Shown piece after piece: positions 35,249-37,253 of a stretch of DNA of 48,804 nt. Location: assembly GCA_947631785.1 (NCBI GenBank), contig CANRMR010000012.1, forward strand, positions 1 through 48,804. The letters run 5' to 3'. Each line of letters opens with the position of its first letter. Positions within the stretch are counted from its first letter, which is position 1. Source of the stretch: an uncultured Clostridia bacterium (lineage in GTDB: Bacteria; Bacillota; Clostridia; TANB77; CAG-508). The notes under the pieces are model-generated. The model searched no databases and was not told the DNA's origin. It saw only the letters and a program-made list of their open reading frames with translations. Position numbers and translations under genes: made by a program.

Positions 35249-37253
35249 ATGAAACACGTAAGCCTTGTTGCTGTAGAGAGAGAGAGAGAGAGAGAGAGAG
35301 AGAGAGAGAGTATATTCTTTAAAAGAAAATAAAACAAATGTAGGGGAAAATGCCTCTGTTTATTCAACAACAAAAAAATACAATATAGATGTAGGGGCAG
35401 ACGCCTCTGTCTGCCCAAATGCTACAAAGAAATGCCCTAATAACGTAGGGGCAGGTCTTGACCTGCCCGGGTCAGTCAAAACTGACCCCTACAAAATACA
35501 CGCAATAACCCTTGTCGCTCTCGTAATCACAGTAATAATCCTAATTATCTTAGCAGGCGTATCATTAAACCTAGCCTTAGGACAAAATGGAATATTTGTA
35601 AAAAGCAAAGAAGCAGTAGATAAATACAAAGACGCAGCCCAAAATGAACAAGAGCATTTAGATGCCACATATAGAGAACTAGAGGGAATAAACTCAAAAG
35701 AATATAATTTAGATGAAGGGGTAAACAAACCAAAACTAACAGAAGGAATGATACCAATAAAATATGATGAATCAAAATCAAAATGGGTAATATGTGAAGA
35801 AAGCGATAAAGACTGGTATAACTACAAAGACGGCAAAAAATGGGCAAATGTAATGTTAAGTGATGGAACATATGCAAGTAAAGAAACAGAAGGAAAAAAC
35901 AAAGCAACAGTAGGTACAGAAGTAGAAGATGCAGAACTAGGAAGTATGTTCGTATGGATACCAAGATATGCATACAGCATAAAAGAATACAAAACAGAAA
36001 AAAATGGATCAGAAGGAACAACACAAAACATAACAGATGTAACATTTTTAGTAGGAACAACAAACAAAGATATAAATGCAAAAACATATCCAACTGACTA
36101 TAAAACAGAAGATGCAAAAGAAGGACAGGCAACACCAAAAATAGTACATCCAGCATTTACATTTGGAGGAGAAAAATTAACAGGAATATGGGTTGCAAAA
36201 TTTGAAGCAAGTATGAAGGAAGATAACAACGATACAAGTGAAAATAATAATAACACAAGCAAAACATTAAAGGTAGTACCAAATGTAGAATCATGGAGAC
36301 ATATACAAATAGGAAATATGTTCAAAAATTGCTTAAGTTTGAAAGATAAATCATCAACCTATGGGCTAACCACATCAACAGATAGCCATTTAATGAAAAA
36401 CATAGAATGGGGAGCAGTAGCATACCTTTGTAGTTCACAATATGGAACAACACCAAAACAAAATACTAAGAATGAAAAAATAGAGATGAATAACGGATCA
36501 GATAATTATAAAATATGGGCAGCAGGACAAGATTACAAAACAAATACAAACCAAAGCACAACAGGAAATGTAACAGGAATATATGATATGAACGGAGGAG
36601 CATGGGAATATGTAGCAGCATATTATGATAATGGAAGCAGTAATTTATCATCTCAAGGAACAAATGATATATTTTCAGGAAATCAGTTAAAAAGTGAGTA
36701 TACAAAATATTGGGATAAATATGAAGTAAGTAGTGAAGAAAAAGATCTTGCAAAAGATACTACATTTTGGAATTCAGGATCAGAAAAAAATTCAGATAGA
36801 AAAAAAATAACAGATGAAAGGTACGAATTAATGAAAAATAAAAAAGGAGATGCAATGTATGAAGTAATAAAAGATTATTCATACTATGTAAAAAATCCAA
36901 GCAATAGTTATATATGGGATAAAGATGAGCCATTTGAATCAACAAATTATGGAACAAGCTACTATAATAGCGACTATGTTCTAATAGGAAATACCTCGCA
37001 ACCTTTCTTGGTACGTGGTGGCTACATTTGGGGTGGCACACATGCAGGTGTTTTTGCTTCTAGCGGTGCTAATGGCGGTGCATGGTTCAATCCACGGTTT
37101 TCGTCCTGTGTTGGTTGCCCCTTAGCACTTCGATACACGAAGAAACATAAAGGTTTCTTATCCCAGATGGGCAGATGTTTACGGACACTGCCGAGAGTTA
37201 AATCTACTAATTATTTCAACTGGATATGTATCAAAGAAGTTTGTTTCCTTTGA
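35249..37253 (+). CDS. Pilin-like surface protein with SUMF1/C-lectin-type variable C-terminus, currently phase-off
   Basis: ATG 35249 follows AGGAAAGAAGG. After nine codons the frame enters an (AG)18 tract and stops at 35330-35332 (27 residues). The main frame (frame of 35748) is open from 35277 to 37253 but has no plausible start before 35748. It contains translated palindromes, then the pilin-like helix AITLVALVITVIILIILAGV (from 35502), a MFVWIPRYAY block and an IYDMNGGAWEYVAAY segment of SUMF1/FGE-like domains, and a DGR-like variable region (RGGYIWGGTHAGVFAS). One more AG unit would join start and main frame. Near 37092 one extra base throws the end out of frame: the other frame reads GFRPVLVAP and stops at 37125, while the current frame runs about 40 residues further. 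Likely an exported adhesin or receptor-like protein. Confidence 0.75.
35275..35310 (+). repeat. (AG)18 simple sequence repeat in the 5' coding region
   Basis: An uninterrupted 36-nt AG tract begins 26 nt after the start of ATG 35249. In the ATG frame it encodes alternating Glu-Arg. With 18 units the reading frame closes at once; 16, 19 or 22 units would connect the ATG to the long downstream frame. No other dinucleotide tract of similar length was seen in the window. Confidence 0.95.
35344..35488 (+). repeat. Four REP-like palindromes translated in the leader of the second pilin-like protein
   Basis: Copies are at 35344-35365 (degenerate, GGGAAAAT/GTTTATTC), 35395-35416 (GGGCAGAC, GCCTCT, GTCTGCCC), 35449-35468 (GGGCAGGTC, TT, GACCTGCCC) and 35469-35488 (GGGTCAGT, CAAA, ACTGACCC). 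The second and third are 32 nt apart; the third and fourth touch. They encode DVGADASVCPN and NVGAGLDLPG in the main frame, directly before the hydrophobic pilin helix. Confidence 0.88.
36990..37125 (+). other. DGR-like variable region (VR candidate)
   Basis: The 3' end of the gene encodes RGGYIWGGTHAGVFASSGANGGAW and then, after a +1 slip, GFRPVLVAP and TAG (37123-37125). This follows the pattern of diversity-generating retroelement target regions in Firmicutes: RGGYY-x-AGVF-x-NG-x-A-x-GFRPVL. The invariant ends and variable Tyr/Asn/Trp/Ser positions fit adenine-directed mutagenesis, but the template repeat is not in this window. The exact left boundary is unknown. Confidence 0.65.
37140..37159 (+). 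other. Hairpin just downstream of the variable region
   Basis: AAGAAAC, loop ATAAAG, GTTTCTT, beginning 15 nt after the restored stop codon. A second small stem, CTTCG/CGAAG, lies at about 37129-37142 just before it. Hairpins or cruciforms a short distance after the VR are a known feature of DGR targets and help retrohoming; function here is inferred. Confidence 0.5.

Follow-up and report, generated by a model that had tools for sequence, protein, structure and literature searches.

The (AG)18 tract at the 5' end of a predicted pilin-like surface gene is very probably a contingency locus, and an instance of a family-wide switch cassette that is used in two ways. The cassette consists of a ribosome binding site, a start codon, a conserved 17-nt flank, an (AG)n or (AC)n tract and a stop gate. 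In type A, to which the locus studied here belongs, the gene is fused behind the tract, so that translation would be switched. In type B, the tract lies in a short leader ORF, one frame of which would carry the ribosome into a terminator hairpin; the ribosome in the hairpin should let transcription reach a surface gene with its own start. The window, i.e. the whole stretch of DNA analyzed (48,804 nt), was contig C12 of a genome of 1.44 Mb in 53 contigs. Its locus is one of 24 switch cassettes in this genome, as counted in a genome-wide scan of AG and AC repeats.

The features of the locus are collected in Table 1. The ATG at 35249 lies eight full codons plus 2 nt ahead of the tract. The original prediction had correctly recognized this start, its good ribosome site and the perfect tract, and only its count of nine codons was slightly loose. 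At n = 18 the reading frame was MKHVSLVAV(ER)n..ESIFFKRK, ending at the TAA that had been proposed. The main frame was open from inside the tract through 37250 (stop at 37251–37253). It contained no ATG, GTG or TTG before 35748, a position already past the hydrophobic segment ITLVALVITVIILIILAGVSLN, which bore out the claim that a normal start is lacking there.

For the ATG to be joined to the main frame, 26 + 2n + 2 must be divisible by 3, that is, n = 1 mod 3. One more, four more or two fewer AG units would do so, as had been predicted (19, 22 or 16). The window copy, with 18 units, is OFF as assembled, in agreement with the original prediction. We interpreted this arrangement as a translational switch. 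By slipped-strand gain or loss of AG units, the coding frame of the pilin-like protein would come into or fall out of register with the sole usable start. At n = 1 mod 3 the protein would be made; at n = 0 or 2 mod 3 the ribosome would hit one of the two stops within 22 nt past the tract, and no product would result. The locus has what is expected of a phase-variable gene: a simple repeat between start and coding frame and, among its paralogs, repeat lengths that give ON and OFF frames.

The sequence of the possible promoter, CATTGCAAAAGAATATTTGTTATGATATAA, was common to the upstream regions of most class A paralogs and resembled 37580–37637; it was absent from the list of a consensus promoter scanner. 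Downstream of the main frame lies a small gene (37580–38024, 121 aa, without a Pfam match), whose upstream stretch is 83% identical to that of the phase-variable gene.

Table 1. Features of the switch locus and its gene in the window
Feature	Position	Strand	Basis or remark
Possible promoter, TTGCAA-17-TATAAG, 5' of the leader	35182..35210	+	inferred
Ribosome binding site, AAGGAAAGAAGGA	35230..35242	+	sequence; similar purine-rich site 5' of every paralog's start
Start codon ATG of the tract ORF	35249..35251	+	26 nt before the tract
Conserved 5' flank (..AAGCCTTGTTGCTGT), adjoining the repeat	35258..35274	+	logo of 57 non-redundant AG loci and 20 AC loci; two reading frames
(AG)18 tract, predicted hypermutable	35275-35310	+	100% perfect repeat
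Stop codon closing one OFF frame	35320..35322	+	post-tract frame 0, YIL then stop
Stop codon TAA of the second OFF frame, used at n = 18	35330..35332	+	post-tract frame 1, IFFKRK then stop
Main frame, phase-variable surface protein (predicted)	35313..37253	+	646 codons and stop
ON-frame linker	35313..35504	+	open in the main frame; largely from palindromic interspersed repeats (VGADASVCPNATK type), repeats D2/D3/D6
Prepilin-like hydrophobic segment, ITLVALVITVIILIILAGVSLNLAL	35505..35579	+	sequence; a relative passes Pfam N_methyl
FGE-sulfatase-like (C-type-lectin-fold type) domain, weak match	36387..36686	+	Pfam PF03781, E=7e-5, 23.0 bits vs cut-off 23.3
Region homologous to template/variable repeat of a diversity-generating retroelement (DGR)	36992..37140	+	78% identity to the C7 template-repeat locus, across the repeat and downstream RNA
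RT-14-like RNA (reverse-transcriptase-associated)	37157..37332	+	Rfam RF02921, 47.0 bits, E=1.6e-4, just under gathering 48.1

A DNA search with the region of this locus gave 96 matches in the genome. Tracts of at least eight AG units were present at exactly 11 loci (n = 10 to 18; (AG)8 scan). All 11 were preceded by a ribosome site, a start codon and the shared 17-nt flank, with the start 26 or 29 nt before the tract and in phase 2. Eight of the tracts lead into a pilin-like paralog in a common post-tract frame, and the other two frames there run into stops at +9 and +19, within six codons. The window locus was thus matched by seven paralogs in its start-flank-tract-stop-gate anatomy and in its productive frame. 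The distance from tract to hydrophobic segment varied widely among these eight class A paralogs, always by whole codons, and the linker kept one frame in all of them despite its widely differing length.

The copy on contig C11 (n = 10) forms a continuous ORF of 456 aa. The ON state predicted for n = 1 mod 3 therefore exists. The other seven copies are OFF, with the n = 14, 15 and 18 copies closed; one ON copy in eight is under the expected one third, in a small number of copies. These paralogs, the ON copy and the free length differences between loci support the phase variation originally proposed, and a conserved start in the main frame downstream of the tract, which would have spoken against it, was absent from the AG-fused loci. 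Among the eight, the C13 copy (n = 14) is possibly broken: its main frame spans just 149 codons, and a 583-aa ORF comes next.

The high copy number, the shared leader and the shared repeats would also suit recombination of modules, in which the 24 shared 5' leaders swap promoters or leaders between surface genes and do not slip. Several contigs end near a tract, which fits such exchange, but assembly difficulty explains these ends equally well. Only a short stretch is shared, and at many of its positions most copies are not alike. We regard recombination in place of slippage as very unlikely, though slightly likelier than the other alternatives.

The prepilin-like hydrophobic segment that follows the linker is the basis of the name "pilin-like" for the window protein. 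The segment itself gave no match to Pfam N_methyl, but a tract-controlled relative (L107) scored 22.2 bits, above the cut-off of 21.2. Further downstream, the domains of the class A paralogs vary, being FGE-sulfatase-like, Laminin_G_3 or without assignment. The palindromic interspersed repeats (GTAGGGGCAGACGCCTCTGTCTGCCC type) were found at 35035–35110, at 35342–35490 and at many other loci of the genome. They sit between genes and also, in frame, within the linker of pilin-like proteins (VGADASVCPNATK).

The 3' end of the window gene is related to a DGR locus on contig C7. There, an RVT_1 reverse transcriptase (C7:32053-32667, E=3e-20; best NCBIfam match a group II RT, below cut-off) lies near a template-repeat locus, and the variable and template repeats of the C7 paralog differ at 15 adenines and two other positions. 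This adenine bias is, from the sequence, the signature of a diversity-generating retroelement. The DGR on C7 (L063, 3817-4941 and 5039-5700) comprises an RT with YMDD and the template and variable repeats, and its target paralog lies under an (AC)15 leader. At the start of the window contig (7-333), the end of another reverse-transcriptase ORF was seen (RVT_1 positions 126-188, YMDD).

Compared with the C7 template, the corresponding region of the window gene has changes at 20 adenines and at 23 positions that are not adenines, and has therefore either diverged or been derived from another template. The window gene is without the stop present in the C7 variable repeat, the template-type CTTCGA replacing the CTTTGA stop. 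Because this stop is missing, the gene acquires an odd tail of about 40 residues that overlaps the RT-14-like RNA. A frameshift at this end was considered and rejected, since the variable repeat on C7 finishes in this frame too. The arrangement seen at the window gene would result if a variable and a template repeat had collapsed into one.

The window copy may therefore be partly decayed, with its usual stop missing and its frame running into the RNA element. Together with the OFF state as assembled, this raised the question of a dead pseudogene, an old pilin gene disrupted by the tract and the palindromic repeats, the frame of which is no longer under selection. Against this, the main frame has stayed open for 646 codons in an AT-rich genome, the seven paralogs share the productive frame across very unequal linkers, one of them being ON, and conservation of the stop gate and flank extends over several genera. 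A dead gene is highly improbable on these grounds, and the contingency locus remained the preferred reading.

The cassette was also searched for in the family, with one genome per species. TAG(AG)9 was present in 82 of 390 genomes and 22 of 39 genera, at up to 30 places per genome. GT(AC)8 was present in 154 of 380 genomes and 29 of 39 genera, with a maximum of 54 matches per genome. Controls with reversed patterns were near zero for AG, with a slightly higher background for AC. The named contigs from a GTDB scan were mostly from metagenome-assembled genomes (MAGs) of uncultured Clostridia, many of them from animal gut.

The stop gate recurred at these loci. Two frames closed within 25 nt and the third stayed open for at least 70 nt at 50 of the 63 non-redundant family AG loci, while 7.3 were expected from base shuffling, which preserves base composition and not codon structure. 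The loci are paralogs and species representatives that are not fully independent, and some dependence persists in the non-redundant subsets used in the tests. Unit numbers at the family AG loci ranged from 9 to 27. Between loci or species, near-identical flanks were followed by different unit numbers (12/11, 18/16, 19/9 and 12/14). The ON frame was found at 27 of 88 callable family loci, near one third.

These numbers also bear on recoding, in which ribosome or polymerase slippage on the AG run would give some protein at any DNA length, with no genetic switching. Transcriptional slippage can arise at repetitive tracts, and the assembled genome has the ON frame at few of the pilin-type copies. 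However, the conserved stop gate right after the tract penalizes the wrong frame, and the unit numbers, with about a third of the family loci ON, vary as slippage at the DNA level predicts. Recoding has as slim a chance as the dead gene. Loss of mismatch repair as the cause of the tracts was rejected, since this genome has MutS, as do 385 of 390 relatives. In one relative with 21 AG tracts (G099, 93% complete), MutS was undetected.

Many MAG contigs end tens of bases from a tract (L104, L112, L142, L150, L155, L180, L188 and others), as expected if assembly fails at repeats or at mixtures of lengths. MAGs probably contain too few of the surface genes that lie behind such switches.

The paralogs without AG tracts might have been taken for constitutive genes. 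This was rejected, as most of them bear (AC)n tracts within short leader ORFs. A short tract ORF was found at the remaining three AG loci and at 12 of the 13 (AC)n loci of the genome. The leader has its own ribosome site and start, with the repeat inside, and wherever the sequence reaches far enough, a gene with a start of its own comes after it. At one AC locus a contig end cuts the sequence directly after the tract. The AC tract on C2 (n = 14) is instead fused, in the ON frame, to a membrane protein resembling acyltransferases, a name taken from reading the sequence and not from a database match.

Twelve loci of the genome were folded (nine AC and three AG). Two frames stopped within 16 nt past the tract (46–54 nt in one case), and the third had its stop within a long hairpin (−23 to −33 kcal/mol) that TATTTTT follows. 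A predicted terminator thus lies between leader and gene and is reached in one frame only. In the family, exactly one frame reached the hairpin at 30 of 34 non-redundant short-leader AG loci, against 5.8 expected from base shuffling of the tract-to-hairpin interval. Some type A genes of relatives (L119, L122, L268, L274, L277-L279) have a predicted in-frame terminator hairpin right after the tract, and are possibly hybrids of the two switch types.

The same cassette at type B loci of this genome, and the own ATG of pilin paralogs with (AC)n leaders, might suggest that the tract ORF of the window is likewise a separate regulatory leader or upstream ORF and that the main gene starts elsewhere, but the two features of an attenuator, a terminator between leader and gene and a start of the gene's own, were both missing there (no U-run terminator was found between tract and gene, and no start before 35748), and the productive frame runs on from the tract without a break at all eight AG pilin loci, which leaves this the least probable alternative.

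Repeat-driven phase variation is known mainly from cultured pathogens. Among the cases in Helicobacter pylori with 5' dinucleotide repeats are sabA and hopZ. Another is oipA, with translational phase variation by a (CT)n repeat (PMC10564699). Like oipA, the window locus has a dinucleotide tract near the 5' end of a surface gene, with the unit number modulo 3 setting the frame, one ON and two OFF. Unlike oipA, it belongs to uncultured gut Clostridia, in which many loci share one cassette with the conserved 17-nt flank and the stop gate; its linker is encoded by palindromic repeats, and its 3' end holds a variable region of retroelement type.

In Streptococcus gallolyticus pil1 and pil3, experiments showed that with longer leader peptides, encoded by GCAGA repeats, the ribosome opens a premature terminator (Danne et al. 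2014, PMC3894217). Phase-variable attenuation as a new mechanism was rejected for this precedent. In the type B leaders, too, a predicted terminator precedes the surface genes, and the repeats would decide whether the ribosome gets that far or stops short of it. The repeats in S. gallolyticus are pentamers at two loci, whereas here AG and AC dinucleotides occupy about a dozen loci in this genome and many across genera, with a conserved flank and a fused-gene variant (type A, as in the window). The type B mechanism is therefore of a known kind, and the repeat type, number and spread are new as far as our literature searches reach.

The phasomes of Campylobacter and Neisseria consist mostly of gene-specific tracts, largely homopolymers in Campylobacter. 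As comparison systems (PMC6321876, PMC5953494), they also have many repeat-controlled surface loci in one small host-associated genome, but here one stereotyped cassette is reused. The C7 paralog resembles other targets of diversity-generating retroelements in its adenine-specific differences (15/17) and nearby reverse transcriptase, and differs from them in that its gene family is also under repeat-length control. Rickettsia palindromic elements are interspersed repeats within coding regions. The palindromic repeats here are similarly in frame inside proteins, but their sites are the linker that precedes the hydrophobic segment and the spaces between genes.

A stereotyped cassette thus appears to control many surface genes in a family of uncultured gut Clostridia. 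It joins the switching of translation with attenuation in leaders and, for some genes, with diversification by a retroelement. Whether a switch is ON or OFF can be seen directly in metagenomic reads, so that ON/OFF dynamics in real guts could be tested without culture.

The flank AAACCSTTGNNGCTGT is common to the AG and AC tracts. In the 17 nt before the tract of 57 non-redundant AG loci, AA occupied −15/−14 in 96–100%, TTG occupied −10 to −8 in about 90%, and the junction read CT(G/C)T. The family AG search had imposed only the last T of the flank, and the AC search only GT; the AG scan of GTDB contigs was left out of the logo because its pattern imposes GCTST. The same motif was seen at 20 non-redundant AC loci (consensus CTGAAACCSTTGAGGCTGT), and with a matrix derived from the AG loci all 20 exceeded the 99.9th percentile of control positions.

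The flank is read in two reading frames, which means that the constraint acts on DNA or RNA. Conservation purely as a peptide was rejected, as nearly the same DNA encoded ..AACCATTGCGAGAGT in one locus (L113) and ..AACCGTTGCGAGAGT in another (C7). A hairpin in the flank (AGCC-TTGA-GGCT) was also rejected, its covariation being not above that of shuffles. In many genera the flank stands ahead of genes unrelated to one another, and this seems to hold for gut Gastranaerophilales too. It might be a cis-acting element of a dedicated repeat-switching system, recognized by a trans factor that creates, maintains or destabilizes the repeat; we consider this unlikely, though less so than any of the alternatives above. 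If true, hypermutation would be targeted and not a passive by-product of repeat length. The occurrence of one flank with both repeat types raises the question of whether contingency repeats can be actively directed.

It is possible that the cassette has spread outside the Clostridia, horizontal spread and misbinning being inseparable in these data. A similar flank was found at three loci in MAGs labelled Gastranaerophilales or uncultured bacterium RUG493 (L135, position 290; L168, position 6307, minus strand; L192, position 2135), each with (AG)15-32 just upstream of a gene. From reading of their sequences, one of these downstream genes is glycosyltransferase-like and two are MsbA-like transporter genes.
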